Shown piece by piece: positions 2,324-32,719 of a stretch of 32,719 bases of DNA. Made by a program: the position numbers and the translations under genes. Position 1 is the first letter of the stretch; every line of letters begins with the position of its first letter. Location: contig JAPLTR010000850.1 of NCBI GenBank assembly GCA_026398065.1, positions 1 to 32,719 of the forward strand, read 5' to 3'. The notes below the pieces were generated by a model. The model saw nothing but the letters and a program-made list of their open reading frames with translations. It made no database searches and had not been told where the DNA came from. The stretch is from Verrucomicrobiota bacterium. Lineage in GTDB: Bacteria; Verrucomicrobiota; Verrucomicrobiia; Opitutales; Opitutaceae.

Positions 2324-2520
2324 GGGGGACGGTGGGAACGCCCGGGGCGAGGGGCAAGGCGCTATATTGAGTGAGACCGCCGGAGCAAATTTAAGTCCCG
2401 CTCCTAACAAGGCCGATTATCATCCTCGATGCAGAAGGCAGCCCCGCTCCGGCGGTGACGAGGGCGGCAGATCGTTTCCATGACCGGCCGACGAGGCCGA
2501 TTGGGAGGTGGGCCCTTCGC

Positions 2521-3726
2521 CTACGGCACGAGGTCGAAGGTGCGGACGTCTTTCTGGACCTCGCGGGTGCCGCTGAGGAAGCGGAAGGCGAGTTCGGTCG
2601 AGGTCTTGACGAGCTGTTCGTAGCGGTTGAGGTCCCACTTGGCGACGGGCTCCTCGTTGACGTGGGTGAGGAGGTCGCCCGGGCGAATCTCGGCTTCGTC
2701 GGCGGGCGACTGCGGGACCACGCTGGCGACGCGCCAGTAGGCCGGGGTCTTGGTGAAGCTGAGGCCGGCGCTGCGGCGGGGCGGGGAGACGATGGGCGCA
2801 CGCGTGTCGCGCTGAAAATAAACCCGGTCGTGCTCCTGGTCGAAGGTGACGCTGAAATTCTTCAGGATCTCGCCGCCGATGGAGGAGAGTTCGTCGGTGA
2901 GGTCGACGAGGGGGCGGGGAAACTGGTAGTCGCCGATGCCGAGCGTCTCGGTGAGCCGGCCGATGCGTTGCGCGCGGTCGCCGGTGAGGGTGCCGACGGT
3001 GGAGCCGGCGCGGGGCGGGACGGCGAAGGTGGGGTTGAGGCCGACGGGATTGAGGCTGAGCGGGGCGTCGCTGCCGGAGTCGATCAGCGCGACGAAACTG
3101 CGGTCGCCGAGGCGCAGGGCGATGAGCGGGGTCTTGCTGGCGTCGTTGAGCGGGATGGCGACGCCGGGGACGAGGGCGGTGTTGCGCGTGGACTGGAGGG
3201 TCACGCGGGCCTGGGGATAGTCGAGGGTGAGCAGGGCCTCGCGAAAGAGGGGGAATCCGAGGACGCCGTCGATCTTCACGCCGAGGTGGGCGGAGAGCGT
3301 CGTGCAGTCGTAGAGCAGCGCGAAGACGTCGTCGAAGCGGGCGTCGCCGAGCGAAATCTGCTCGATGGTGGTAGGGGAGAGCTCGGTGGTCTGGCCGTCG
3401 GCGGAGAGCACCTGGACGCGCGGGGCGTTGGGGGGCGGGGCGTCCTTGGACGCGTAGCGTTTGGCGAACGCGGGGGTGACGAGGGTGACGGACGAGCCGG
3501 TGTCGATGAGGAAGTGGTAGGGGCCGGAGCGGTCCCACTTGGCCTCGACGACGAGGTAGTTGCCGATGGCCTTGGTGGGAACGACGACGAGCTTCGAGCC
3601 GAGGGTGGTGCGGCCCGGGCGGGGCGGCGTGCGGCGAAAGGCCGAGGGGAGCGAGGAAAGCGAGACGCAGCCTCCGAGCATCAGCAGCGCGGCGCAGGCG
3701 GCGAGCAGCGGCAGGAGGCGCTTCAT
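2521..3726 (-). CDS. Lipoprotein aspartyl protease with two DTG/DSG motifs and a PDZ domain
   Basis: A 401-residue predicted envelope protease. The start ATG is followed by a lipoprotein signal ending L-G-G-C at Cys20. Residues about 50-180 form a retropepsin-like domain with the catalytic motif D75-T-G-S-S. A second half, about 185-305, carries D216-S-G-S-D. The chain therefore has both aspartates needed for an active site, a pepsin-like arrangement in one polypeptide instead of a retropepsin dimer. Residues about 320-401 are a PDZ domain (S-P-A-D-E-A-E-I-R-P-G-D pattern) that would bind peptide C-termini. The start lies 2 bases after the stop of the MFS exporter, so the two are probably co-transcribed and translationally coupled. 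The substrate is unknown. A longer frame reaching to 5121 exists but only shadows the MFS gene; the lipoprotein signal fixes the start here. Confidence 0.82.
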   Translation of the reverse strand: MKRLLPLLAACAALLMLGGCVSLSSLPSAFRRTPPRPGRTTLGSKLVVVPTKAIGNYLVVEAKWDRSGPYHFLIDTGSSVTLVTPAFAKRYASKDAPPPNAPRVQVLSADGQTTELSPTTIEQISLGDARFDDVFALLYDCTTLSAHLGVKIDGVLGFPLFREALLTLDYPQARVTLQSTRNTALVPGVAIPLNDASKTPLIALRLGDRSFVALIDSGSDAPLSLNPVGLNPTFAVPPRAGSTVGTLTGDRAQRIGRLTETLGIGDYQFPRPLVDLTDELSSIGGEILKNFSVTFDQEHDRVYFQRDTRAPIVSPPRRSAGLSFTKTPAYWRVASVVPQSPADEAEIRPGDLLTHVNEEPVAKWDLNRYEQLVKTSTELAFRFLSGTREVQKDVRTFDLVP

Positions 3727-3728
3727 CG

Positions 3729-5072
3729 TCACTTCACGGGTTTGGGCAGCCGCGTGCTGAGAACGAGGGCGACGACCGAAAGGATGGCGGCACAGATGAA
3801 CAGCGTCCGGCCGCCGAACACCCAGAACACGGTGCCGGCGAGCACGGGGGTGATCGCGCGGGAGAGGGAGCCGAGGGAACGGAAGATGCCGAGGACGCGG
3901 CCCTGCTCGGCCGCGCTGGCGTAGAGCGAGATCAGGCCGGTGGTGGCGGGATTGACGAGGCCGGAGCCGAGGGCGAGGAAGGCGAGGCCGACGTAGAGCA
4001 GCCACGGCTGCATGGCGAAGCCGATCAACACGAGGCCGACCGCGGAGGCGACCAGGCCGGCGGAGAGGATGCCGGTCTCGTTGCGCCGCTTGAGCAGTTT
4101 CCGGACGAGCCAGCCCTGGACGACGATGGCGCAGAGGCCGAGGAAACCGAGCAGGTAGCCGTTCTGGCGGGAGGTGTAGCCGAAGCGTTCGGCGGCGAGG
4201 AAGGTGAGGGAGGTCTCCATCGCGACGAAGGCGAGGGAGAAGATGAAGGCGACGACGTTGGCGCGGCGGACGTCGGCGTTGTCGAGCATCAGGATCGCGC
4301 GGAGGGGATTCTTGGTGCGGGGCTCCTTCGCCTCGGCGCGGGTGGCGGGCGAGAGGGTTTCGGTGAAGCGGAGGGAGATCCAGACGAGATTCACCAGGCA
4401 CAGGGCGAACGCGATCAGCGCGGGGACGGTGAAGGGATTGACGCCGTACTGGGCGAGGCCGGGGTGGGCCTGGAGGAGATTGAGGTGGGAGGTGAAGGCG
4501 CCGATGGTGGGGCCGGTGACGAGGCCGAGGCCGAAGGCGGCGCCGACGAGGCCCATGGCCTTCGAGCGCTCGTCGCGGCTGGTGACGTCGGCGACGGCGG
4601 CGGTGGCGACGGAGAGATTGCCGCTGAACGCGCCGCTCACGAGGCGGGAGAGGAGGAAGAGCCAGAACGAGCCGCTGACCACCCAGATGAGGTAGCCGAG
4701 GGCGGTGCCGGCAACCGTCCAGCGGAGGACTCCGCGGCGGCCGAGGCGGTCGCCCAGGCCGCCCCAGAGCGGCGAAAAGATGAACTGCAGGATGGAAAAG
4801 ACGGAGCTGATGACGCCGCCGAAGAGGACGGCGGCGAAGTTGCTGTCCTTGCCCAGGGCGTGGGCGATGGAGTCGAGGTGGGCGAGGAGCCAGCCGAGGA
4901 CGCCGGAGTGGCCTTCGAGACCGAGGTAGTGGTTGAGGAGATCCGGCCCGAGGGGAAAGATGATCGAGAAGCCGATCAGGTCGATGTAGAGCGTGAGAAA
5001 GATGACGCCGAGGGAGAGTTTGCGCGGGGGCGCGGAGGCGGGGGGGACGGAGGAGGTGGCGGCGTGGGACAC
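3729..5072 (-). CDS. MFS transporter (DHA1/TetA-like exporter)
   Basis: A 447-residue major facilitator with about 12 hydrophobic segments. The conserved loop 2-3 motif G-G-L-G-D-R-L-G-R-R is present near residue 105, behind F-S-P-L-W, as in TetA-like drug:H+ antiporters. A segment G-P-T-I-G-A-F fits motif C of exporters. The start is a GTG giving Met-Ser-His-Ala; the frame runs further upstream to 5228, but that part is composition-biased and lacks family similarity. No Shine-Dalgarno motif is visible. The gene is followed after 2 bases by the aspartyl protease gene. The substrate cannot be inferred. The spacer of 166 bases from the upstream MmcQ-like gene carries a hairpin, so this may be a separate transcript. 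Confidence 0.85.
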   Translation of the reverse strand: MSHAATSSVPPASAPPRKLSLGVIFLTLYIDLIGFSIIFPLGPDLLNHYLGLEGHSGVLGWLLAHLDSIAHALGKDSNFAAVLFGGVISSVFSILQFIFSPLWGGLGDRLGRRGVLRWTVAGTALGYLIWVVSGSFWLFLLSRLVSGAFSGNLSVATAAVADVTSRDERSKAMGLVGAAFGLGLVTGPTIGAFTSHLNLLQAHPGLAQYGVNPFTVPALIAFALCLVNLVWISLRFTETLSPATRAEAKEPRTKNPLRAILMLDNADVRRANVVAFIFSLAFVAMETSLTFLAAERFGYTSRQNGYLLGFLGLCAIVVQGWLVRKLLKRRNETGILSAGLVASAVGLVLIGFAMQPWLLYVGLAFLALGSGLVNPATTGLISLYASAAEQGRVLGIFRSLGSLSRAITPVLAGTVFWVFGGRTLFICAAILSVVALVLSTRLPKPVK

Positions 5073-5217
5073 GTGAAAGGGGGGGAGCAAAGACCTTCCG
5101 CACGAAGACGCCAAGGCGCAAACGGAAGTTCCGTCATCGGGCGCAAAGCAGGTTTCGCGGTTTGACGCAGCGGGGCGCGGACCAGTGGAGCGCTCGGCTT
5201 GCCGGGGGGCGAGCCAA

Positions 5218-5238
5218 GGCGTCTGCAAGACAGACGCC
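5218..5238 (-). terminator. Perfect 8-bp hairpin abutting a stop codon
   Basis: GGCGTCTG (5218-5225) and CAGACGCC (5231-5238) pair perfectly around a CAAGA loop. The hairpin ends exactly next to the stop codon (5239-5241) of the minus-strand MmcQ-like gene. No T-tract follows, so it may be a REP-like mRNA-end element, not a classical terminator. Confidence 0.5.
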
Positions 5239-5589
5239 CTACAGGCCGAGCTGGGCGCGGAGTTTTTTGGTGAGCTTGGCGACGACGAGGTCGTAGCTGC
5301 GGCGGATGCGGCGGTCGAGTTCGGCGGGGGGCAGGGCGGCGAGGTCGCCGACGCGGACCCAGTGGCGCTTGGCGCAATACGGCGCCTGGATGATGCCGTC
5401 GAGGTCGGTGAGGTCGTCGAACTCGTCGGGCGTGCACTTGAAGATCACGCCGTCGAGGGTTTCGCCGTCGAGGGCGAGGAGGAGGAACATCTTGCCGGCG
5501 ACCTTGAAGACGAGGCACTCGCCCCACTGTTTCACGACGGTGGTGTGGGGGAGGGCGAGCGCGGAGGCTTTGAGGTGGGCGAGGCGCAT
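5239..5589 (-). CDS. MmcQ/YjbR family protein
   Basis: A 116-residue protein of the MmcQ/YjbR family, small cytoplasmic proteins with a double-wing, CyaY-like fold that has been linked to DNA binding; the biochemical role is not established. Visible family features are the N-terminal L-P-x-(T)-x-x-x-x-x-W-G-E segment, the central V-A-G-K-M-F strand, and the K-R-H-W-V-R segment near residue 74-79 before the C-terminal helix. Length fits the family (about 115-120). The start ATG lies 26 bases after the stop of the 1045-residue hybrid kinase, so the gene is probably the last member of the kinase transcript. No functional link to the kinases is known. Confidence 0.82.
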   Translation of the reverse strand: MRLAHLKASALALPHTTVVKQWGECLVFKVAGKMFLLLALDGETLDGVIFKCTPDEFDDLTDLDGIIQAPYCAKRHWVRVGDLAALPPAELDRRIRRSYDLVVAKLTKKLRAQLGL

Positions 5590-5615
5590 GGCGGGAGGGC
5601 GTGCGGGCGGCCCGG

Positions 5616-8600
5616 CTAGCCGGTGCGGGGGAATTTGCCGAGGAGATCGGAGAGTTCGAACGGTTTCGCCATGAACTCGCTGGCGCCGAGGGCGGCGCAG
5701 CGGCGCATGGTGTCCTCCTCGCTGTAGCCGCTCATGACGATGACGCGGACGTGGGGGTTGAGGACGCGGAGGCGGCGGAGGGTTTCCTCGCCGGAGATGC
5801 CGGGCATCGTGAGGTCGAGGAGGACGGCGACGATGGCGTCGGGCTGTTCCTGATACCGCCGGAGGGCCTCCTCGCCGTCGGCGACGGCGATCACGTGGAG
5901 GTTCTGGCGGCGGAGGGCGGCGGAAGCGATGATGCGGACGGCCTCCTCGTCGTCGACGATGAGGACGGTCCCGCGCGGCTGCTCCGCCTTTGCAGCCGGG
6001 GCGGCGGCGACGGGGACGAGCGGGGTGGATGTCGGCGAGGGGGCGGGCGTGGCGTCCGAGGCGGGCAGGAGGAGGCGGAAGGTCGAGCCGCGGCCCACAA
6101 CGGACTCGACGTAGAGGGCGCCCTGATGGCTTTGCACGATGCCGAGGACGGCGGCGAGGCCGAGGCCGCGGCCGGAGAACTTGGTGGTGAAGAACGGTTC
6201 GAAGATGCGCGCCATGGTTTCGGGCGTCATGCCGGAGCCGTTGTCGGAGACCTCGAGGCCGACGTAGCGGCCCGCCGGGAGGTCGGGGCGGTGGAGCGCG
6301 GCGCGGAGCAGTTCGGTGCTGGCCTCACGGACGAAGGTCGTGACCGCGATCTCGCCGGGTTTCTCGCCGATGGCGTCGGCGGCGTTGATCACGAGATTCA
6401 TCACGATCTGCTGGAGCTGGGAGGCGTCGGCCATCACGGCCGGCAGACCGTCGGGGAGAGTGAGGGTGAGGCGGGTGTTCTTGTGGATCGAGACGGAGAG
6501 GAGGGTGGCGGTGGAGCGGACGAGCTCGGTGAGGCTGGTGGCGCGGGTGACGAGGGTGCGTTTGCCGGCGTAGGCGAGCATCTGCTGGCAGAGATCGGCG
6601 GCGCGGCGGGCCGCGGCCTCGATCTGGTCGAGATGGGAGGTCGCGGGGCTGTCGGCCGCGACGGCGAGGCGCGCAAGGGTGGCGTTGCCGAGCATCGCGG
6701 TGAGGAGGTTGTTGAAATCGTGCGCGATGCCGCCGGCGAGCACGCCGAGGCTCTCGAGCTTCTGGGTCTGGAGCAGCTGGCGCTCGAAGGCGAGTTTCTC
6801 GGCCTCGGCGCTCTTGAGTGCGGTGACGTCGATGGCGAGGCCCTCGATGAAGCGCAGGGAGCCGTCGTCGGCGAAGACGGGCCGGCCGCGGACGAGGGCC
6901 CATTTGACGCGGCCGTCGCGGTGGCGGATGCGGTATTCGACCTCGAAGCTGCGGCGCGCCTGCATGGCTTCGCCGACGGCGCGCCGGGTCGAGGCGCGGT
7001 CCTCGTCGACGGTAAGGTGGGCGAGGTGGACGCGGCCGCCGAGGAAATCGGCCGGCGGGTAGCCGGTGAGGGGGAGCAGGCCCTCGGTGCCGAAGAGGAG
7101 GGTGAGGTTGTCGTCGAACCCGCACCGGAACGCCGCGCCGGGGAGCTGCCCGAGGAGGTTGCCGAGCTGGCGCCGGCTCTCCTGCAGCTCGGCCTCGGCG
7201 CGTTTGCGGGCGGTGATCTCGGTGGCGATGCCGCAGAGCGCGTAGATCTGGCCGTTGGTGGCGCGAAGGGGAAATTTCTGGACGATGTGGGTGCGGGGGC
7301 CGTCGGGTCCGGGGCTGGACTCCTCGAATTCCATCGGAATGCCGGCGTCGAGGACGAGGCGGTCGTTGGAGCCGAAGATCGCGGCCTGGGTGGTGGGAAA
7401 AAGGTCGGAGTCGCGCTGACCGATGATGCCGGACTGATCCCGCCCGACGAGGAGTTCGAAGGGGCGGTTGGCGAGGACGTAGTAGCCGGCCGGGTCCTTC
7501 ACGAAGATGCAGGCGGGGCTGTTGTCGAGGATGGCCTGGAGGCGGGCCTCGCTTTCGCGGAGCTGCCGCTCGATCTCCTCGCGGCGCTGGATGTCCTCCT
7601 GCAGGGCCTCCTGGACGGCGCTGAGTTCGGCAGTGCGGCGGGCGACCTGGCGTTCCACATGGGCGGAGCGGCGCTGGGCGCCGAAGAACCACGCGCCGGC
7701 CGTGCCGGTCAGCGCGAGGCCCAGGGCGAGGGTCAGCCAGCCCCGGAAGCCGGATTGCTGGGCCTGCCACTCGGGGGTGGGGCGGAACCACAGCTCCCAT
7801 TTTCGTCCGCCGTGGTCCAGGGGCACGCGGAGATGGAGTCCGGCGGCCATCTGCCCGGCCGTGGGCGGGGGGGCGGTGTGATCGGCGCGCGGCGAAGTGG
7901 AGCTGTAGTGGAGGAACTGACGGTCTTCGGTGGCGGAGCGGTCGAGGAAGAGGACCTCAAGACCCTGGGCATCGCCCGACTTGAAAAACGACTCGAGCAC
8001 GTCGCTGATGCGAAAGATGCCGAACACAAATCCCCGGAGGGCGGCCCGCCGGGCGTCGGGGGTGTCGGCCGCGAGCGGGACGTGGTAGACGGGCAGCTCC
8101 ATGATGTAGCCCCAGCTTGAGCCGCCGCGGCGGTCGAGCAGAGGCAGGCGCCCGGAGGAGGCGAGCAGGCCGGTGCCGGCGATTTCCTGGAGTTGTGACC
8201 AGGTGACCCCGGAAACCAGATCGAAGCCGAGCGCGGGCTCGTTGCCCGCATAGGGTTCGATGTAGAGCACGGGGAAATACTCGGGGCGCGCGGCGGCGGG
8301 CCGGAGGGTGTTGCCGGAAACCCGTTCGGTCAGTTGAAACCCGGGGAAGCCCTCCGCCCGTACGGCCGACTCGAAACGCTCCCGGTCCGGCCCGGGGAGC
8401 CGCACGATCCACTCCAACGCCTGGACGCCGACCTGCCGCGAGATGATGTCGCGGGCCGCGCCACCGAACTCCTCGCGGGTCACCTCTCCCGAGTAGTGGA
8501 ACAGGCTGCGGAGGGTGTAGAGGGACTCCTGGTGGCGCTGCAGGCGATCGGAGGCGATGCTGGTGAAGTTCTGGGCCCGGCGGGCGAAATCCGCCTCGGA

Positions 8601-24217: not shown

Positions 24218-25374
24218 TGGACCCGCGGCAGGAGGAACTGCGGCGCCGGCTCGGCGCGCTGGGCTTCGACGACGTGCGGTTTGTCGCGCTCACGGCCGGC
24301 CACGACGACGGGCTGCGGGCGTGGCTTGCCGCGGGGATGCACGGCGAGATGGGCTGGATGGAACGCTCCTTGGAGAAGCGCGCCGACCCGCAGTTCGTGC
24401 TGCCGGGCGCGCGGTCGGCGATCATGCTGGGCGTCAGCTACGCGGGCGCGGCCGAACCACGGGAGGGCCGGCCGGCGTGGGCGCGGTACGCGCTGCACGA
24501 GGACTACCACGACACGATGAAGCCGGGGCTGGTCGCGGCGGGAAAGTTGATCGAGGAACTCTACGGCGCGGGTGAGCGCGACTACCGGTACTATGTGGAC
24601 ACGGGTCCGGTGCTGGAGCGGGGCTGGGCGGCGCGGGCGGGACTGGGGTTTGTGGGTAAAAACGCGATGCTCATTTCCCGGCGGCATGGCAACTGGCTGT
24701 TTCTCGCCGAGCTCCTGACGAAGGTGGACTTCGTGCCCGACGAGCCAATCAAGAAGAGTGTCGAGAATCTGGATACGCAGCAGGCGGGCGGCGTCGGGCT
24801 GCTGTGCGGCAAGTGCACGCGCTGCCTCGACGCCTGTCCGACGGACGCCTTTGCGCGGCCGGGCGTGGTCGACGCGCGGCGTTGCGTCTCTTACCAGACG
24901 ATCGAGAACAAGGGGATCATCCCGCGCGGCCTGCGCGCCGGGATCGGCCACCGGATCTACGGCTGCGACGCGTGCCTGGAGGTGTGCCCTTGGAACCGTT
25001 TTGCGCAGGCGGGGCGGAAGCTGCTGCTGGCCGCGCGCGGCGAGATCGCGGAGCTGGAGCTGCGGGAGCTGCTGGAGCTGACGCCGGTGCGGTTTGCGGA
25101 GGTGTTCCGGCGCACGGCGATCAAGCGGGTGAAGCTTGGCGGGCTGCTGCGCAATGCGTGCGTGGTGGCAGGGAACTCCGGCGACGCCGAGCTGCTTCCG
25201 GTGCTCGTGCGGCTGGCGGGCACGCATGAGCTGCCGCTCGTGCGGGCGCATGCGGTGTGGGCGGTCTACCGGCTTGGGGGCGGGGCGCAGCTCGCGGCGG
25301 CGCGTGCCGGAGAAATGGATACCGCGGTGCTGGCGGAGTACGCGGCGGAAGACGGGCCGGCTACGGGGGCGTGA
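24217..25374 (+). CDS. queG: Epoxyqueuosine reductase
   Basis: A 385-residue cobalamin-dependent iron-sulphur enzyme that reduces epoxyqueuosine to queuosine in tRNA, the last step of the pathway. Two [4Fe-4S] motifs are visible: C197-G-K-C-T-R-C-L-D-A-C207-P and C250-D-A-C-L-E-V-C257-P. The Y-Y-V-D-T-G-P segment with Asp128 holds the proposed catalytic acid, and K-N-A-M-L lies near 148-152. The C-terminal part (about 310-385) is HEAT-like. The start ATG overlaps the aroK stop by one base. The 3' end overlaps the convergent thioesterase gene by 14 bases. No other queuosine gene is in the window. Confidence 0.95.
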   Translation: MDPRQEELRRRLGALGFDDVRFVALTAGHDDGLRAWLAAGMHGEMGWMERSLEKRADPQFVLPGARSAIMLGVSYAGAAEPREGRPAWARYALHEDYHDTMKPGLVAAGKLIEELYGAGERDYRYYVDTGPVLERGWAARAGLGFVGKNAMLISRRHGNWLFLAELLTKVDFVPDEPIKKSVENLDTQQAGGVGLLCGKCTRCLDACPTDAFARPGVVDARRCVSYQTIENKGIIPRGLRAGIGHRIYGCDACLEVCPWNRFAQAGRKLLLAARGEIAELELRELLELTPVRFAEVFRRTAIKRVKLGGLLRNACVVAGNSGDAELLPVLVRLAGTHELPLVRAHAVWAVYRLGGGAQLAAARAGEMDTAVLAEYAAEDGPATGA

Positions 25375-25768
25375 AGACCGCGTTCATCCGCGCGACGAAG
25401 GCGGGCGGCGGGCGGGTGGGGCGGCCGGTCAGGTCGCAGAACGCGTGGGCGCTCTCGCCGGTGGCGAGCAATTCCTCGCCACGGAAAACCTCATAGGCGA
25501 TGCGGATGCGGAGGAGGGGTTTCTCGCGGATCGTGGCGACGATGGTGAGGGTGTCGTCGTAGAGGGCGGGGCGGCGGTATTTCGCGGAGACCTCGAGGAC
25601 GGGGATGCGGTAGCCGTCGCTCTCGAGCTGGCGGTAGGGAAAGCCCTGTTCGCGGAGCAGTTGGGTGCGGGCGACCTCGAACCACGGGAGGTAGTTCGCG
25701 TGGTAGACGATGCCCATCATGTCGGTCTCGGCGTAGCGGACCGTGACCTGCGCGCGCGCCGTGATCAT
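25361..25768 (-). CDS. 4HBT-family acyl-CoA/acyl-ACP thioesterase (YbgC/FadM-like)
   Basis: A 135-residue hot-dog thioesterase. The motif Y-A-E-T-D-M-M-G-I-V-Y-H-A-N-Y at about 12-26 is the YbgC/FadM signature, with Asp16 as the catalytic residue. Length fits the family. It would hydrolyse an acyl-CoA or acyl-ACP thioester. The ATG overlaps the stop of the upstream GT4 gene by four bases (ATGA), so the two are co-translated. Its neighbours across the divergent promoter are an ACP-dehydratase fusion and a ketosynthase, which suggests it releases or edits acyl chains made by them (inference); a housekeeping YbgC role is the alternative. Its end overlaps the queG end. Confidence 0.9.
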   Translation of the reverse strand: MITARAQVTVRYAETDMMGIVYHANYLPWFEVARTQLLREQGFPYRQLESDGYRIPVLEVSAKYRRPALYDDTLTIVATIREKPLLRIRIAYEVFRGEELLATGESAHAFCDLTGRPTRPPPAFVARMNAVFTPP

Positions 25769-26931
25769 ACCTCGGCGTCGGCGGCGACGGGGCTGAAGAG
25801 GGCCTCGGCGGATTCCTTCCAGCAGTTGCGCGTCGCCCACGCGCGGCCGGCGGCGCCGAGCTTTTTGCGGAGCGGGGCGTCGTGGATGAGTTTTTCGAAG
25901 GCGGCGGCGAGCTGGGCGGGGCGGTGCGGCGGCACGAGCAGGCCGGTGACACCCTCCATGACCGCCTCGGAAACGCCGCCGACGTCGTGGGCGACGACGG
26001 GCAGGCCGTGGGCGGCGGCTTCCAGGTAGACCAGGCCGAAGCCCTCCACACTGTGTCCGACGTTGATGCTCGTCATCGCGAAGATGTCGGCACGGTCGTA
26101 GAGGTCGGAGAGCTCCTCGTCGGGGATGTTCCCGAAGAAGCGGACCGTGAGGTCGGGCTTTTCCGCGGCGGCGGCGCGCAGGTTGCTCTCGTAGGTGCCC
26201 TTGCTCTGGGTGCCGACAACCCAGTATTCGAGCCGGGCGCGCACGTCAGGGGTGAGCATCTGCAGCGCCTGCAACGTGAGGAGCTGTCCCTTCCGCGGGT
26301 GGAGGCGGCCCACGGTGAGGACGACGATTTTCTTGCGCGGCTTCTCGGGCTTCGGGGGCACGACCGCGAAGTCTGAGCGGAGGGCGCCGGGGGTGAGGAA
26401 GATCTTGTCGGCCGCTCCAGGGAAATGGGAAAGGAGCAGCTCCTGAGTATAGTTCGTCAGCGTGCTGACGCGTGTCGCACGGCGGATGAGCTGGCCAGCC
26501 AGCCAGCGGCGGAGGGGGCTGCGGGCGAACTTAAGAATTTCAGAGCCGTGAAACGTGAGGACCAGGCGGCGCGGGCGGAAGGCGTGGAAAAACTGGAGCA
26601 GCATCATCGTCATCATCGGTCCCGGTTCGGGGAGGTAGACGGTGGCGTGGCGGAGATCGCGACGGTGGCGGATGAGTTCGCGGGCGAGCTGAACCTGGCA
26701 CCACAGGTCGTGCGTCCCCTTGAGCGGCAGACGCCGGAGGCGGAAAGGCCAGTCGGTCCGCTCGACCGCCGGCGGCGCGGACTGGGCCCAGACCTCGATG
26801 TTGTAGCCCAAGCTGGCGCTGGCGCGGGCGATCTCCTCGGTAAAGGTGGCGATGCCGCCCCGCACGGGATAAAACTCGTGAGTGATGAGGAAGACCGGCC
26901 GTTGGGCGGGAGCGGTGGAGGAGACAGACAT
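25765..26931 (-). CDS. GT4-family glycosyltransferase
   Basis: A 388-residue retaining glycosyltransferase of GT-B fold. The N-terminal domain has the G-G-I-A glycine loop at 25-28 after H-E-F-Y-P; the C-terminal domain has V-G-R-L-x-x-R-K-G (207-215) and the E-x7-E motif Glu296/Glu304 in E-G-F-G-L-V-Y-L-E. It transfers a sugar from an NDP-sugar at the cytoplasmic face of the membrane; donor and acceptor are unknown. It is translationally coupled to the thioesterase gene and divergent from the ACP-dehydratase fusion across a 230-base spacer, which supports a role in glycosylating a lipid or polysaccharide (inference). Confidence 0.9.
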   Translation of the reverse strand: MSVSSTAPAQRPVFLITHEFYPVRGGIATFTEEIARASASLGYNIEVWAQSAPPAVERTDWPFRLRRLPLKGTHDLWCQVQLARELIRHRRDLRHATVYLPEPGPMMTMMLLQFFHAFRPRRLVLTFHGSEILKFARSPLRRWLAGQLIRRATRVSTLTNYTQELLLSHFPGAADKIFLTPGALRSDFAVVPPKPEKPRKKIVVLTVGRLHPRKGQLLTLQALQMLTPDVRARLEYWVVGTQSKGTYESNLRAAAAEKPDLTVRFFGNIPDEELSDLYDRADIFAMTSINVGHSVEGFGLVYLEAAAHGLPVVAHDVGGVSEAVMEGVTGLLVPPHRPAQLAAAFEKLIHDAPLRKKLGAAGRAWATRNCWKESAEALFSPVAADAEV

Positions 26932-27161
26932 GCGCTGGTGTGGAAGGACGAACGGCGGACGTTTGGTGGACGCGCCGGAGTGACAAAAGGTAAGCTAGGT
27001 CACGACCGGGCGTTCTGGCAAGCATCGCCATGGACCCCGCCGGGGGCCAAAGTTCATGAAAACACGGCAGTTGTCGCAACATCTGTGCACCGCAAGGGTC
27101 TCCGTAGCACCCAAAAAATGGGTTTACATTCCGGGGCCCCGTAACATACAAGAAACGAATA
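26932..27161. promoter_or_regulatory. Divergent spacer, likely promoters of the lipid cluster
   Basis: The 230 bases separate the minus-strand GT4 gene from the plus-strand ACP-dehydratase gene and must hold promoters for both. The right end (about 27060-27161) is AT-richer, with TTTACA near 27123, the 10-bp palindrome CGGGGCCCCG after it, and an A-rich stretch before the ATG. Exact promoter elements cannot be fixed by eye. Confidence 0.35.
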
Positions 27162-28154
27162 ATGCCAGACGCAGTTCTATCAAATCCGGGCGCAAACAAG
27201 CCGAATCCGCCGACACCGAAGCCCTTTGCGCCCGAAGACGAAGCCGCCCTGCGTGAGGCCCTCAAACGCTGCTCTCCGTCTGCGTTTGAGGCTGCCGTGC
27301 AATTTCGTAAGACCGGTAATGCTGAGCATGTTCCGGCAGTGGTGATCGGCGTGATCGAGCGCTTCGTCGAGCCCGACCTGCGGGTGAAATTGAAGGATGC
27401 GGACGACGACCTCCGCCTGATCGAGGACCTCGGGATCGACTCCCTGACGATGATGGAAATCGTCATCCTCGTGGAGGACGTCCTCCAGATGACCATCAAC
27501 AACGATGAGCTGCGCAACTTGCGCACGGTAGGAGATGTGAAAACTTTCATCGACTGCAAGATCCGCGGTCTGCCGCTCCCCAAGCCCACCAAGTTCATCC
27601 CGATCGAGCACATCGGGGCGGTGATGCCCATCCAGCCGCCGTTCCTCTTCCTGAACGAGGCCTCGGTGAGTTCCACGGCGGCCAACGGGAAGTACAAGAT
27701 CACGGGTCAGGAGTTTTTCCTCCAGGGCCACTTCAAGGATAATCCCGTGATGCCCGCCTCGATCATGCTGGAGGCCCTTGGCCAGCTCGCCGTGCTTTAT
27801 CTGTTGGAAGGCGCCCCGACTGAGCCGGGCAAGGTCGTGAGCGCGCAGACCATTTTCTTCACCGGTTGCGAGGGCGTCCGCGCCCACCGCATCTGCAAGC
27901 CGGGCGACATCCTGACGTTGTCGATCAAGCCGAAGCGCATGAAGATGCCGCTCGCGACCTTCGAGGGCGCGATCCGCGTCGGCCAGGAAAAGGCGGTCAT
28001 CGTCGAGGAAATCACGCTGACGTTCGGGATCGTCGACGCGGCCAATGCGCCGGTGCCGATCAACGGCCAGACGACTCACCCCTCTGCCGCCAATGGCTCG
28101 ACTGCCACCCCGGCGGTGGTCGCCCCGCCCCTGCGCGTGGCGTTCAATACCTGA
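27162..28154 (+). CDS. Acyl carrier protein fused to a FabZ-type 3-hydroxyacyl-ACP dehydratase
   Basis: A 330-residue two-domain protein. After a Pro-rich start, residues about 55-135 form an acyl carrier protein with the phosphopantetheine site Ser94 in L-G-I-D-S-L-T-M-M-E. A short linker leads to a hot-dog dehydratase (about 145-295). The segment G-H-F-K-D-N-P-V-M-P-A-S with His190 and E-A-L-G-Q with Glu204 is the FabZ active site; Glu instead of Asp argues against FabA. A low-complexity tail of about 35 residues follows. In ordinary type II fatty acid synthesis these are separate proteins, so the fusion points to a dedicated acyl-chain pathway. It is the first gene of the plus-strand cluster and is followed by a strong terminator and then a ketosynthase. 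It should carry and dehydrate beta-hydroxyacyl intermediates. Confidence 0.92.
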   Translation: MPDAVLSNPGANKPNPPTPKPFAPEDEAALREALKRCSPSAFEAAVQFRKTGNAEHVPAVVIGVIERFVEPDLRVKLKDADDDLRLIEDLGIDSLTMMEIVILVEDVLQMTINNDELRNLRTVGDVKTFIDCKIRGLPLPKPTKFIPIEHIGAVMPIQPPFLFLNEASVSSTAANGKYKITGQEFFLQGHFKDNPVMPASIMLEALGQLAVLYLLEGAPTEPGKVVSAQTIFFTGCEGVRAHRICKPGDILTLSIKPKRMKMPLATFEGAIRVGQEKAVIVEEITLTFGIVDAANAPVPINGQTTHPSAANGSTATPAVVAPPLRVAFNT

Positions 28155-28205
28155 GCGGGCGTGGCTCGCGCAGCCCCGGCCTCCGCGCGGGCGATTAAAA
28201 ATTCA

Positions 28206-28231
28206 GGGCGACCGTCGTGGTCGCCCTTTTT
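28206..28231 (+). terminator. Rho-independent terminator after the ACP-dehydratase gene
   Basis: GGGCGACC (28206-28213), a GTCGT loop and GGTCGCCC (28219-28226) form a perfect 8-bp stem followed by TTTTT-G-TTTTTT. It lies about 50 bases after the stop codon. This implies that the ketosynthase downstream has its own promoter in 28232-28345, or that termination is partial. Confidence 0.9.
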
Positions 28232-28345
28232 GTTTTTTGTGGTGACCGCCTCCCGCGTTGACCGGGGCGGGCGAACCCCTTCTCTTTGGCGTCCGGTCGG
28301 CGCACTCCTGCTTTGCTGGCGTGTCCAACCGCGCCACACCAACGC

Positions 28346-29608
28346 ATGCCCCGAGTTTTCATCACCGGCCTAGGATTCATCACGAGCATCGGCAACGACG
28401 CCGCCACCGTCACGCGGAACCTCCGCGAGCTGCGCCATGGCTTCGAGGTCTTCCCGCCGTTTCAGAAACCGGAGATCCCGGTGAAGGTGATCGGCACGAT
28501 CAAGGACTTCACGACGGATTCGACCGATCCGGAAGACTGGACGTTTCCCGCGGCCTACAAGATCAAGCGCGAGCTGCTGCGGACCATGGCGCCGAACGGC
28601 CTTTTCGCCCACTGCGCGATGCTGCAGGCGGTGGCCGACGCGAAACTCACCGAGCCCGATATTTCCAACCCGGAGACGGGGCTCTACGCGGCCTCGGCCG
28701 GGTCGCCCTACCTGCTGCACTACCACAACGACCGGCTCAACAAGCTCGGCGTGATGCGGTGCTCGCCGCTCGGCATCGTGGCGTCGATCGCGGGCACGCT
28801 GAATTTCAACCTGATCGCGGCCTTCAAGATCCAGGGGTCGTCCTGTGGCTTCTCCTCGGCGTGTGCGTCGTCCGCGCATGCCTTGGGTTTTGCGCTCGAT
28901 GACCTCAAGCTCGGGCGGCAGAAGCGGATGTTTGTCGTCGGCGCGGAGGACGGGAATGTCGACGCGATCCTGCCCTTTGCCGGCATGCGCACGCTCTCGC
29001 TGCAGACCGATCCGAACCTCGCGTCGCGGCCCTTCGACGCGGGCCGGGACGGTTTTGTCGGCACCGGCGGCGGTGTCGCGATGGTGCTGGAAACCGAAGA
29101 GGAGGTCCTGCGCCGCGGAGTGAAACCCTATGCGGAGGTGCTCGGCTGGGGGCAGGCGTCCGACGGCTGGAACGTCGCGATTTCCCACCCCGAGGGCAGC
29201 GGCTCGGCCGCGGCGATGACGCTCGCGCTCAAGGCGAGCGGCGTGGCTCCGGAGAACGTCGACTACGTCAATGCCCACGCGACGTCCACGCTCATCGGCG
29301 ACGTGTCCGAGGCCCGCGCGCTGCGCTCCGTCTTCAAGGATGCGGCCAAACGGCCCGCGGTCAGCAGCACCAAGGCGCTGACGGGCCACGGTCTCTCGCT
29401 GGCGGGCGCGATGGAGAGCGCGTTTTGCGCACTGGCGATCCGCGACGGCTTCATCCCCGGCAACGCGCACCTCGTGAAGGTCGATCCGGAGTGCGAGGGT
29501 CTGAATCTGCCGCGCACCACCGAAAACACGGCCCCGAACATCGTGATCAAGAACAGCAGCGGCTTTGGCGGAGCCAATGTCGCGCTCGTCTTCAAGCGGG
29601 TCGCCTAG
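28346..29608 (+). CDS. Beta-ketoacyl-ACP synthase (KAS I/II family)
   Basis: A 420-residue condensing enzyme of thiolase fold. The catalytic triad is complete: Cys173 in S-A-C-A-S-S, His311 in N-A-H-A-T-S-T, and His348 in T-G-H-G-L. F-D-A-G-R-D-G-F-V (230-238) and the glycine-rich C-terminal N-S-S-G-F-G-G-A-N (403-411) are also typical. It would elongate an acyl chain with malonyl-ACP. Residues about 40-75 are an unusual insertion-like stretch compared with FabF, and the final GH motif reads S-T-K-A-L-T-G-H-G instead of S-T-K-S-x-x-G-H, so it is likely a specialised member. The ATG chosen begins at the first family strand. It lies 191 bases after the ACP-dehydratase fusion; a separate ketosynthase next to a fused ACP-dehydratase suggests a dedicated elongation set. 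Confidence 0.92.
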   Translation: MPRVFITGLGFITSIGNDAATVTRNLRELRHGFEVFPPFQKPEIPVKVIGTIKDFTTDSTDPEDWTFPAAYKIKRELLRTMAPNGLFAHCAMLQAVADAKLTEPDISNPETGLYAASAGSPYLLHYHNDRLNKLGVMRCSPLGIVASIAGTLNFNLIAAFKIQGSSCGFSSACASSAHALGFALDDLKLGRQKRMFVVGAEDGNVDAILPFAGMRTLSLQTDPNLASRPFDAGRDGFVGTGGGVAMVLETEEEVLRRGVKPYAEVLGWGQASDGWNVAISHPEGSGSAAAMTLALKASGVAPENVDYVNAHATSTLIGDVSEARALRSVFKDAAKRPAVSSTKALTGHGLSLAGAMESAFCALAIRDGFIPGNAHLVKVDPECEGLNLPRTTENTAPNIVIKNSSGFGGANVALVFKRVA

Positions 29609-29817
29609 CGCCGTGGTCACCATTTTCCGGTTACAGGAGTCGTCGGCGCGCGGCGCGGCGGGCGGGATGGCGGATTTTCCGCCGCCGGCTGTCGTGGTCA
29701 GGGTGTGCCCTGGCGACAGTCGAATTTGTCGGAGCGGCGGTCCGCTGGCCGGCGGCTCCGGTGCAGACGCAGGTTCGCCGGGCGGTGGGGCGGACGGCGG
29801 GAGCGTTTCCTAAGCGA
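29609..29817. other. Spacer with a hairpin, no gene
   Basis: The 209 bases between the ketosynthase and the next glycosyltransferase hold no convincing frame. A hairpin, GGCGGA (29669-29674) and TCCGCC (29678-29683) with a TTT loop, is the only structure I can support. It has no T-tract behind it. Confidence 0.4.
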
Positions 29818-31056
29818 ATGTCCAAGCTCCGCATCCTCGTCCTCACATCCAGCACCGGCGGCGGTCACGACGCGCGCGCGGAGGCGTTTGCGGAGTGGTG
29901 TTTCCAGCTCTACCGCCACGACGTCGACGTGCGCATCGAGCAGATGCTCGAAAAGTCCTCGGTGGTGAATCGCACGGGCGTGAACCTCTACAACCGCATC
30001 CAGCGGCTGGCGCCGTGGATGCACAAGGTGTTCTACGCCGTTGTCGAGGTGCTGAGCTGGCTCAACCGGCGCAAGGTCACCTTTGGTGCGGCCTACTACC
30101 TCAAGGTGCTGAAGGACTACAAACCGCACCTCGTGTTCAGCGTCCACGACTGCCTGAACCGCGGCTATTTCCAGCTGGCGCGGGAGACGCTCGGGGCGGA
30201 CAAGGTGCGCTGCGCGACGTATTGCGGCGAGTTTTCCGGCGGCTGGGGCTATTCGCGCAACTGGATCGAGCCGACGGTGGACCTCTATTTTTCGCGCACG
30301 CCCACGGCGGCCGACTACGCGGTCAAGTGCGGGATCCCCCCGGAACGGTCCAAGGTGCGCGGCTACCTGATGCTGCCCCGCTCGCACCTCGAGGTGCTCG
30401 GCCCGGTCGAACGCCGCGTGTTCCAGACCAAGCGCCTCGGGCTCGATCCGGAAAAATTCACGGTGTTTCTCGCGACGGGCGGGAATGGCGCGAACAACCA
30501 CTTCGACCTGCTGCCCGCGCTGGTGAAACACGCGGACCGCGTGCAGGCCATCGTGATCTGCGGGAAGAACAAGGAGACCTACAACGACCTCGTTCACTGG
30601 CGCGCGCTCCACCCGGAATTCGACTGCCACATCGAGGGCTACTCGGAGATCGTGCATCTTTACATGCAGGCCAGCGAGGCGATCGTCACGCGCGGCGGCA
30701 CGACGACCTGCGCGAAGGCGCTGCACTTCCAGTGCCCGATCATCTTCAACGCGTTTGGCGGCATCATGCCGCAGGAGGAGCTTACCTGGAAATTTTTCCG
30801 CAACGGGGCCGCCTCCGAAAAGATCGAGGAGGCCGCCGACTTCGCCCGGTTGATCGACCGCTGGATGGCGGACCGGACGACCTACGACCGTGTGCGGGAA
30901 AACTTCCTGAAGCTCCGTTACGAGGAGGACCCGACGATCCTGATCGAGGAGCTGGTCGGGCTCGCCAACGAGGTCGCGGGTGCGAAGCTCAAACGCCGGG
31001 CGTTTCCGCCGGCGAACGGCAATGGCAACGGGCACAAGCCCGCGACCGCGCCGTGA
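29818..31056 (+). CDS. MGDG-synthase-like glycosyltransferase (GT28 type)
   Basis: A 412-residue GT-B glycosyltransferase resembling monogalactosyldiacylglycerol synthases and bacterial processive diacylglycerol glucosyltransferases. The N-terminal loop S-S-T-G-G-G-H-D-A-R-A-E-A (about 11-23) and a C-terminal E-G-Y, then V-T-R-G-G-T-T-T-C-A-K-A-L near residue 288-300, match the donor-binding parts of that family. The acceptor would be a lipid such as diacylglycerol at the inner membrane. The C-terminus is a short N-G-N-G-N-G-H low-complexity tail. The ATG was chosen because the family strand L-R-I-L-V-L-T follows directly. Its place behind an ACP-dehydratase and a ketosynthase suggests that the acyl product is built into a glycolipid (inference). 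Confidence 0.85.
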   Translation: MSKLRILVLTSSTGGGHDARAEAFAEWCFQLYRHDVDVRIEQMLEKSSVVNRTGVNLYNRIQRLAPWMHKVFYAVVEVLSWLNRRKVTFGAAYYLKVLKDYKPHLVFSVHDCLNRGYFQLARETLGADKVRCATYCGEFSGGWGYSRNWIEPTVDLYFSRTPTAADYAVKCGIPPERSKVRGYLMLPRSHLEVLGPVERRVFQTKRLGLDPEKFTVFLATGGNGANNHFDLLPALVKHADRVQAIVICGKNKETYNDLVHWRALHPEFDCHIEGYSEIVHLYMQASEAIVTRGGTTTCAKALHFQCPIIFNAFGGIMPQEELTWKFFRNGAASEKIEEAADFARLIDRWMADRTTYDRVRENFLKLRYEEDPTILIEELVGLANEVAGAKLKRRAFPPANGNGNGHKPATAP

Positions 31057-31133
31057 GCCGCCGGACCGCCCGCGCGAATCCGGATGCAATCCGCTTGGCC
31101 GCGATGCGGCGGGCACTCTAGCTTTCCCCTACT

Positions 31134-32345
31134 TTGCCGACCGAAGCGCCCGTCATCGCCTACCTTTTCACGACGTTCCCGAAATCCACGGAGACGTTTC
31201 TCCAGCGCGAGATCATCGCGATGCGGGCGCACGGGGTGAACCTCCGGCTGTATTCGCTGTGGGGCGGGGGCGGCTCGTTTCGCGGCCTGCCGGTCAAGAA
31301 ATTCAGCATGTGGCGGCTGCTGACCCTCGTCTGGATGATCCCCTACGAGTCGTGCCGGCGGCCGGAGGTCCTGAAGCAGGTGGTGCACGGGTTGTTCACG
31401 CGCCGCGCTCCGTCGTGGATGAATTTCTGGGAGAACATGCTCGGGGCCGGGTTTGCCTGCCTGTTTGCCGGTGAGTTTCGGAAGCTGCGTCCGGCGCTCG
31501 TCCACGCCGCATGGGGCGGGGCGCCGGCGACGGGTGCGTGGCTGCTGTGGCGGCTCGACGGCCACCGGTTCAGCGCCGCGGCGCACGCCTACGACATCTA
31601 CGAACATGGCGGCGACTGGTGGCTGAAGGACAAGCTGGAGCACGCGGCGTTTGTCCATACGTCCACGGAAATGGGCCGGCGGGCGCTGATCGCGCGCGGC
31701 CTCGCGCCGGAAAAGGTGTTTTGCATCCGTCGCGGCCTCGACCGGCTGCCGGTCTTCAAGCGGCTGCGGTCCTCCCGCCGCCCGCTGCATCTGGTGTGCG
31801 TCGCGCGCCTGGTGGAGAAGAAGGGGCTCGACCACCAGCTGCGCATCTACGCGGCGCTGCGGGCGGGCGGCGTGGATTTCGAGGCCCGGATCGTGGGCGA
31901 GGGGCCGCTGTTGCCGGAACTGGAAAAGCTCGCGGGCCATCTCGGGGTCGCCGCCCAGGTCACCTTCACCGGCCACCTGCCGCACCACGAAGTCTGGAAT
32001 CAATTGGAGTGGGCGGACGTGCTGCTGCATACGGGGGTGATCGCCCCGAGCGGCGACCGCGACGGGCTGCCGAATGTAATCCCGGAGGCGCTGTCGGTCG
32101 GAGTGCTGGTGGTCACGTCGCCCGCGGCGGCGACCACCGAGGCGGTCACGCATGGCGTGACCGGCCTGGTGGCCGACGTCGAGACGGCGGACGTCTGGGT
32201 GGAGGGACTGCGGCGGCTGTCGACCGACGATGCCTTTGCCGAAAAGCTCCGCGCGGCGGGCCGGGCCTGGGTGGAGGAGAACTTCAACGCGCACCGGAAT
32301 GCGGAGCGGGTGCTCGCGCAGTTCAAGCGGGCGATCGGGCCATGA
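31134..32345 (+). CDS. GT4-family glycosyltransferase, WcaL/AmsK-like
   Basis: A 403-residue GT-B glycosyltransferase. The N-terminal A-Y-L-F-T-T-F-P-K-S-T-E-T-F (9-22) is typical of colanic-acid type GT4 enzymes. H-A-Y-D-I-Y (151-156) and V-A-R-L-V-E-K-K-G (223-231) follow, and the C-terminal donor site is D310-G-L-P-N-V-I-P-E318-A. The start must be TTG at 31134: an in-frame TAG at 31119-31121 lies only four codons before it and no other start precedes the conserved N-terminus. It probably adds a further sugar to the product of the cluster. The stop overlaps the start of the next gene (ATGA). Confidence 0.9.
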   Translation: MPTEAPVIAYLFTTFPKSTETFLQREIIAMRAHGVNLRLYSLWGGGGSFRGLPVKKFSMWRLLTLVWMIPYESCRRPEVLKQVVHGLFTRRAPSWMNFWENMLGAGFACLFAGEFRKLRPALVHAAWGGAPATGAWLLWRLDGHRFSAAAHAYDIYEHGGDWWLKDKLEHAAFVHTSTEMGRRALIARGLAPEKVFCIRRGLDRLPVFKRLRSSRRPLHLVCVARLVEKKGLDHQLRIYAALRAGGVDFEARIVGEGPLLPELEKLAGHLGVAAQVTFTGHLPHHEVWNQLEWADVLLHTGVIAPSGDRDGLPNVIPEALSVGVLVVTSPAAATTEAVTHGVTGLVADVETADVWVEGLRRLSTDDAFAEKLRAAGRAWVEENFNAHRNAERVLAQFKRAIGP

Positions 32346-32719
32346 TCTTTTTCGACGTGACCAAGGCGGGGGGGGCCGGGCACCGCTCGGGGCTGATGCG
32401 CGTGAGCGCGCGGCTGGCCGACGGGTTGCGGGACGTCGCGACGGAGGTGCGCTGGGGCGCGTGGGACCGCGCGAAGGCGGGGCCCGACGACTGGTTTTTG
32501 ACGGGCGAGCTGTTTTCGGAGGAGGAGCGCCCCGGGTTCACGGAATTCCTGGCGCGGCCGCCGTGCCAGCTGGCGGCGATCTTTCACGATGCGATCCCGC
32601 TGAAGCATCCGCACATCACCTGGCCGCAAAGCGTGGCGCGGCATCCCGGCTACCTGAAGCTGCTCGCGCGTTTCGACCGGGTGTGGGCGGTGTCGGAGGC
32701 GAGCCGTGACGAGTTGGTC
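32342..32719 (+). CDS. Glycosyltransferase, N-terminal part (cut by window edge)
   Basis: An open frame of 126 codons from an ATG that overlaps the previous stop (ATGA) and runs off the window. The start M-I-F-F-D-V-T-K, the segment A-I-F-H-D-A-I-P-L-K-H-P near residue 79-90 and the end V-W-A-V-S-E-A-S-R-D-E-L are typical of the N-terminal domain of GT4-like glycosyltransferases. The translational coupling makes it the next member of the cluster. The donor-binding domain is outside the window, so specificity cannot be judged. Confidence 0.8.
   Translation, partial: MIFFDVTKAGGAGHRSGLMRVSARLADGLRDVATEVRWGAWDRAKAGPDDWFLTGELFSEEERPGFTEFLARPPCQLAAIFHDAIPLKHPHITWPQSVARHPGYLKLLARFDRVWAVSEASRDELV

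Follow-up and report, generated by a model that had tools for sequence, protein, structure and literature searches.

A contig of 32,719 nucleotides from a Verrucomicrobiota bacterium of the family Opitutaceae (GenBank assembly GCA_026398065.1, contig JAPLTR010000850.1) ends in a group of genes, between positions 25361 and 32719, that combines enzymes of acyl-chain elongation with several glycosyltransferases. Which lipid do these genes serve? The stretch analysed (the window) is the entire contig, G000:C699:1-32719, and comes from a fragmented metagenome-assembled genome (MAG; 7.2 Mb, 1004 contigs, 89.5% complete). An acyl thioesterase gene and a glycosyltransferase gene (GT4a) point left; the genes for a fusion of acyl carrier protein with a FabZ-type dehydratase (ACP-FabZ), a beta-ketoacyl-ACP synthase (KS), a glycosyltransferase related to monogalactosyldiacylglycerol (MGDG) synthase and UgtP (MGDG-like), a second GT4 enzyme (GT4b) and a third, partial one (GT4c) point right, the contig end falling inside GT4c. 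The initial annotation proposed that a special acyl chain is built into a glycolipid. The dedicated acyl-extension module beside lipid-type glycosyltransferases agrees with this; as to the kind of lipid, a gene for an enzyme of serine palmitoyltransferase (SPT) type lies past GT4c in many relatives, which makes a sphingoid-based product more likely than an acylated glycerolipid. Sphingolipids are membrane lipids better known from animals and plants. On balance, the sequences lead us to favor the reading that the stretch covers the greater part of a gene set, conserved in many related environmental bacteria, that makes a sphingoid-based glycolipid, with an acyl-extension module of its own that would feed the SPT.

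Conservation of the gene order

A scan of genome records with an ACP-FabZ alignment returned 313 related stretches. Locus counts are taken from the best 80 of these 313; their denominators are limited by flank length, and matches below 35% identity were dropped for most genes. The titles of the 80 loci mostly read Opitutaceae, Opitutae or Opitutus, some only Verrucomicrobia or bacterium. Among loci with enough flanking sequence, GT4a and the thioesterase gene were each present in 74 of 74, KS in 71 of 73 and the MGDG-like gene in 60 of 62. On the right side the figures were 44 of 58 for GT4b, 39 of 51 for GT4c and 29 of 51 for the SPT-like gene (right flank longer than 8.5 kb), indicating that the right half of the cluster is more variable than the left. 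By genome, an MGDG-like match was found in 60 of 76, the window's own included, and in 48 of 49 within the family, four of whose members (G009, G013, G042, G048) have a remote version (31-37%). The arrangement extends to another order of the same class: one genome (G148, L244) carries GT4a, ACP-FabZ, KS, a short-chain reductase (SDR) gene, the MGDG-like gene, GT4b and SPT within 17 kb, at 36-53% identity, with the MGDG-like gene (37%) on the opposite strand. Recurrence of the order in so many genomes is more than chance. The order is clearly not unique to this strain, and the acyl-extension module beside lipid-type glycosyltransferases is a conserved cluster, as had been proposed.

An SPT-like enzyme beyond the contig edge

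In many relatives GT4c is followed, on the opposite strand, by an alpha-oxoamine synthase gene. A contig of a genome from the window's genus (G007) also stops inside GT4c, and an exact 141-base overlap links it to another contig that runs through GT4c into the SPT-like gene. When the encoded enzyme was ranked against solved structures, Sphingobacterium SPT came first with 326 bits, followed by a different molecule at 265 bits; cysteate transferase scored 204. This Bacteroidetes SPT (PDB 8guh/3a2b) is the closest solved enzyme, and the active-site residues are alike at the seven positions checked. Identity to the E. coli SPT is 36%. In a midpoint-rooted tree of alpha-oxoamine synthases, 18 cluster enzymes fall on one side of a branch with 100/100 support and group with three known SPTs and a canonical-type SPT from G017 (97/92), apart from KBL, BioF and a Thermus enzyme.

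PMC9304779 describes a position occupied by Lys in cysteate transferases (SulA Lys281) and by Ala in SPT; the SPT residues named there were mapped here by spacing and alignment. All 18 cluster rows have Ala at the diagnostic position, as do the three known SPTs. The residue is Asn in the six rows of the KBL group, Thr in BioF and the Thermus enzyme, and Val, Val and Cys in three other paralogues. The active-site Asn, His, Lys and Arg of SPT are likewise present in 18 of 18 cluster rows.

Co-occurrence of the acyl module with SPT

Joint presence of the two genes was scored at thresholds of our own choice (E <1e-80 for fused ACP-FabZ and E <1e-95 for SPT in 76 relatives; 1e-25 and 1e-80, respectively, across the phylum) and assessed by Fisher's test, the p-values being uncorrected for shared descent. 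Among the 76 genomes, 55 have both, four have ACP-FabZ only (G000, which is the window's own, G003, G018 and G068), three have SPT only (G013, G059, G064) and 14 have neither. The phylum-wide sample of 193 genomes divides into 22 with both, four with an ACP-FabZ-type protein only, three with SPT only and 164 with neither, so that 29 have at least one of the two. The four ACP-FabZ-type cases are G000, whose contig is broken, G068, which has the fusion, and G067 and G223, where the gene is unfused or split by a stop; the SPT-only genomes (G189, G124, G225) match at 39-42% identity. By hand count, 30 of the 55 relatives with both have SPT and ACP-FabZ on a single contig no more than 10 kb apart. 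A core of ACP-FabZ, GT4b and SPT, joined at times by GT4c or KS, recurs in several families outside the window's own (G074, G065, G051, G075, G061).

Several observations weigh against a sphingoid product fed by this module. The two genes are unlinked in 25 of the 55 relatives; seven of these cases involve a short contig or a contig end, and about 18 appear to be genuinely unlinked. In G218, one of the 22 phylum-wide genomes scored as having both, the match covers just the ACP part. SPT was not found in G068, a 100% complete genome with fused ACP-FabZ, KS, MGDG-like and GT4b genes; nor in G067 and G223, of one genus, with their unfused or stop-split ACP and FabZ; nor in G063, G067 and G070, which have unfused ACP, FabZ and KS genes. 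In G063 (L201, 9278-12280) FabZ and KS directly precede what looks by eye like a Kdo transferase gene, and the acyl module of this genome may serve lipopolysaccharide (LPS). The window's own assembly yielded no SPT, a result that is uninformative because the adjoining sequence, the rest of GT4c, is missing too. The cluster SPT scores below the NCBIfam SPT cut-offs (388 against 640 bits for the CFB model, 351 against 500 for beta, 288 against 670 for alpha), with the BioF model close behind at 332 bits (cut-off 426). The enzyme, if an SPT, is a divergent one.

The last set of contrary points concerns N-acylation. A ceramide synthase of yghO/aca type is strong in only 7 of the 76 genomes and weak in two more, and the window's genome has no match to it. 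Three of the seven strong homologues lie near a different alpha-oxoamine synthase: in G044 and G048 the two genes are immediate neighbors, and in G017 a second SPT lies about 6 kb away. Inspection by eye of 26 chosen SPT loci, without a family-library scan, revealed no recurring N-acyltransferase family. A glycosylated long-chain base, or one N-acylated by some other enzyme, is a possible product.

Besides the cluster described here, G017, a genome of the family, carries on contig C13 (L205) a distinct sphingolipid set of the Caulobacter/E. coli kind, with an SPT 50% identical to that of E. coli and homologues of AasR, CerS and CerR. In G044 and G048 (L203, L204) the ceramide-synthase homologue adjoins an oxoamine synthase from a separate, long-branched group; in this enzyme the SPT-diagnostic residue is Val, and Tyr takes the place of Asn53.

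Genes of the acyl module

The two units diverge from a spacer at 26932-27161, as the initial annotation described, and this arrangement is retained in relatives. Pfam and NCBIfam matches also support the genes it had named (GT4, 4HBT thioesterase, ACP-FabZ, KS, MGDG-synthase-like and GT4). The ACP-FabZ gene (27162-28154, plus strand) encodes an N-terminal extension followed by ACP (PF00550, E 2.5e-6) and FabZ (PF07977, E 9.5e-15), both above cut-off. Ser94 of the ACP and the FabZ catalytic residues His190 and Glu204 are invariant in all 22 aligned rows, from which L044 (stop within the chosen range) and L058 (stop reported in the gene) were excluded. Two further alignments were made; one comprised 23 loci chosen from 60 full-length loci, plus the window, and the other omitted L184, which has a stop, L177 and L185. 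Equally invariant is a Pro-Ala-Ser in FabZ, where many FabZ proteins have Pro-Gly-Val at the corresponding site. Structure prediction for the fusion was poor (pLDDT 50.1) and was not used.

The FabB/FabF-type KS (28346-29608, plus strand) matches PF00109 and PF02801 and has the catalytic Cys, His and His motifs; the same pattern check did not find the third motif in the KS of G068. On the minus strand, the thioesterase gene (25361-25768) accompanies GT4a in relatives and encodes a YbgC/FadM-like 4HBT protein (PF13279, E 1.1e-18; TIGR00051, 89.1 bits against a cut-off of 68.7). For this gene and for KS the most likely starts are 25768 and 28346, rather than those of the longest open reading frames.

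Related acyl genes are found elsewhere in the same and other genomes. Another contig of the assembly, C235 (L039, approximately 1600-7060), has a second KS 56% identical to that of the cluster, an ACP whose N-terminal part is similar, a further KS-like protein, a gene weakly similar to lipid A acyltransferases (under the Pfam cut-off) and a PlsC-like gene (under the NCBIfam cut-off); these may belong to a cluster of aryl-polyene or resorcinol type. Contig C437 (L040, 2705-3130) encodes an ACP paralogue with no FabZ match, and similar FabZ-less paralogues occur on G008:C80, G005:C617, G002:C25, G033:C110, G041:C7, G014:C17, G028:C1 and G023:C24, with identities to the ACP part of the cluster protein in the 44-64% range. 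In five contexts of such paralogues (L195-L198, L202) none of the other query genes was found.

Glycosyltransferases

GT4a (25765-26931, minus strand; PF00534, E 5.3e-38) overlaps the thioesterase gene by 4 bp, and GT4b (31134-32345, plus strand; PF00534, E 5.4e-26), which in a number of other families is found together with ACP-FabZ and SPT, overlaps GT4c to the same extent. Between KS and GT4b lies the gene for the lipid glycosyltransferase of GT28/MGDG-synthase/UgtP type (29818-31056, plus strand). The protein matches PF06925 (MGDG_synth) with 28.2 bits against a cut-off of 25; its best NCBIfam model, diglucosyl diacylglycerol synthase, gives 89 bits, far under the cut-off of 500. The solved relatives detected by sequence at E 0.1 are only processive diacylglycerol glucosyltransferase and MGD1, and the structure model (pLDDT 82.7) has plant MGD1 (4wyi) as its top PDB fold, with TM-scores of 0.72/0.87.

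GT4c (32342-32719, plus strand) is incomplete. The contig ends within the gene; the 125 codons searched have no family match of their own, and the missing half was not found in the window's assembly, where a search gave weak paralogues only. A full homologue in a genome of the same genus (L055) is a GT4 enzyme, which bears out the third glycosyltransferase of the initial annotation as to family, the copy in the window being only a fragment. In L055 (12547-18611) and similar loci the SPT gene is followed by a further GT4 gene (GT4d) and by genes for large proteins that by eye appear membrane-embedded; these perhaps contribute to head-group extension or belong to a neighboring polysaccharide locus.

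A reductase missing from this strain

In 50 of 71 related loci an SDR gene separates KS from the MGDG-like gene, and an SDR match at E 1e-30 was obtained in 50 of 76 genomes, including the eight others of the window's genus (G001-G008). The window's genome gave no match at this threshold, and its KS/MGDG-like interval is a 209-bp gap (29609-29817, plus strand) with no significant SDR remnant. A degraded SDR was considered for this gap and rejected, the only trace being a stretch of 18-19 bases that matches within the SDR gene of several relatives, short of significance at E 0.2-0.7. The absence of a ketoreductase from the window, noted in the initial annotation, is therefore true of this strain; in most relatives the gene lies between KS and the MGDG-like gene and not, as had been suggested as one possibility, to the right.

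The SDR gene also adjoins KS in G148 and G082, from other orders of the same class, which fits a role as ketoreductase of the acyl module. By sequence it is a candidate ketoreductase or 3-ketosphinganine (long-chain-base) reductase. The protein next to KS is of a generic kind; none of the 76 genomes exceeds the cut-off of the KdsR model. As this model also matches 11 of 14 control genomes it does not discriminate, and identification as a proven 3-ketosphinganine reductase was dropped. Absence of SDR from 21 of the 71 loci suggests that another reductase can substitute.

Proposed pathway and comparison with known systems

With the ACP fused to a dehydratase, a KS of its own and often an SDR, the acyl chain is probably extended on this ACP. 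From the families of the enzymes, KS, ACP-FabZ and, in most relatives, SDR would elongate or tailor the chain, and the SPT-type enzyme would join the acyl-ACP to serine, giving a 3-keto long-chain base. That SPT uses the ACP of the cluster is suggested by co-occurrence, linkage and analogy with AcpR of Caulobacter. Reduction, and any N-acylation, would fall to SDR or to enzymes encoded elsewhere. The MGDG/UgtP-like enzyme would then add the first sugar, and GT4b, GT4c and GT4a would lengthen the head group, while the thioesterase might edit or recycle stalled acyl thioesters. No enoyl reductase was recognized beside KS, SDR and ACP-FabZ, so that SPT might receive its chain from an (E)-2-enoyl-ACP donor. 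In a bolder version of the pathway, which we rate as improbable, this donor would yield a 3-keto-(4E)-sphingoid base, the sphingosine double bond being set during chain building and no desaturase being needed.

Rhizobia likewise devote an ACP, a dehydratase and a KS to one envelope lipid, in the AcpXL/FabZXL/FabF module for lipid A. The present cluster differs in having no LpxXL acyltransferase among its genes, in the fusion of ACP and FabZ, and in the linkage to SPT and glycosyltransferases in many genomes. The MGDG-like enzyme shares with MGD1 and the UgtP-type processive diacylglycerol glucosyltransferases the MGDG_synth family, the MGD1 fold and a common Gln-Glu pair in the alignment, but only 19% identity with MGD1 over the fold match; its acceptor may be ceramide or a long-chain base. 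In Caulobacter and E. coli BL21, according to sections of PMC9386255, SPT prefers an acyl chain carried on a dedicated ACP that is loaded by an acyl-ACP synthetase. Judged against the ceramide genes given there (spt, acpR, aasR, epi, aca), the likeness lies in an SPT encoded near a dedicated ACP. Here, in contrast to those sets, the ACP forms one protein with FabZ, KS (and SDR) take the place of an acyl-ACP synthetase beside it, a linked ceramide synthase was not seen in the cluster, and several glycosyltransferases are linked.

Spt-like proteins have been reported in 22 Verrucomicrobiota MAGs from the Black Sea (PMC11334938). The Spt section of that article places SPT-like genes in the same phylum and does not describe a cluster of ACP-FabZ, KS and glycosyltransferases; the main text uses neither "glycosyltransferase" nor "acyl carrier". 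Among the matches listed in literature searches on bacterial and on Verrucomicrobia/Opitutales sphingolipids and glycolipids, judged by title and the start of the abstract and with few subscription journals covered, no description of the cluster was found; titles and abstract openings retrieved for an ACP-FabZ fusion with sphingolipids gave no paper describing it either. Spt-like genes in Verrucomicrobiota are hence already known, and this cluster was not previously described among the matches listed.

Alternative explanations

The genes could instead make an acyl-glycerolipid, with KS and ACP-FabZ supplying a special fatty acid, the MGDG/UgtP-like enzyme glycosylating a diacylglycerol that contains it, and SPT being a neighbor from another pathway. 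The closest relatives of the MGDG-like enzyme, MGD1 and the UgtP type, do take diacylglycerol, and both the SPT-less module of G068 and the many genomes with unlinked SPT fit this scheme. It does not account for the co-occurrence of SPT with ACP-FabZ and their repeated adjacency, even in families without an adjacent KS or MGDG-like gene, and a dedicated acyltransferase is not among the seven cluster genes; we regard it as unlikely. Lower still we place a module whose ACP, FabZ and KS would provide lipid A, or some other glycan of the envelope, with an unusual chain, on the model of rhizobial AcpXL and FabZXL. The role of AcpXL in lipid A is mentioned in sections of PMC9386255. The SPT-less G063, with unfused FabZ and KS directly before the Kdo transferase-like gene, and G067 and G070, with unfused ACP, FabZ and KS and no SPT, point this way. 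The fused ACP-FabZ, by contrast, tracks SPT, G068 being the sole exception in the phylum-wide sample that an incomplete or broken assembly does not explain, and an LpxXL-like acyltransferase is not among the seven cluster genes (it was not searched for elsewhere).

Two further readings have very little in their favor. A set that has KS, dehydratase, ACP and thioesterase but lacks an enoyl reductase recalls aryl-polyene or flexirubin-like pigment clusters, and on contig C235 genes weakly resembling acyltransferases do adjoin the 56% identical KS and an ACP. Neither the second KS nor the acyltransferase-like queries from C235 were found in the best 80 of the 313 loci, where several glycosyltransferases and SPT are present instead; a pigment cluster is most improbable, as the queries used, which did not include aryl starter genes, brought up no matching gene set. 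Hardly credible is a capnine-type sulfonolipid cluster in which the oxoamine synthase is a cysteate transferase. SulA is closely related to SPT and takes acyl-ACP (PMC9304779), but the residue at the position of SulA Lys281 is Ala in 18 of 18 cluster enzymes and the PDB score of cysteate transferase is 204 bits against 326 for SPT. The diagnostic residue thus disfavors this reading.

Implications

If the cluster does make a sphingoid-based glycolipid, a bacterial order would have a sphingolipid-type glycolipid pathway that draws its acyl chain from a fatty acid synthase-like module of its own, as opposed to the loading of free fatty acids in Caulobacter. ACP-FabZ near SPT would then be a marker for assigning environmental glycosphingolipids to their producers. 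The pathway would also make it possible to test directly if a dehydratase can set the sphingosine double bond; should the (E)-2-enoyl-ACP scheme hold as well, the 4,5-trans sphingoid base would be formed in an independent way.

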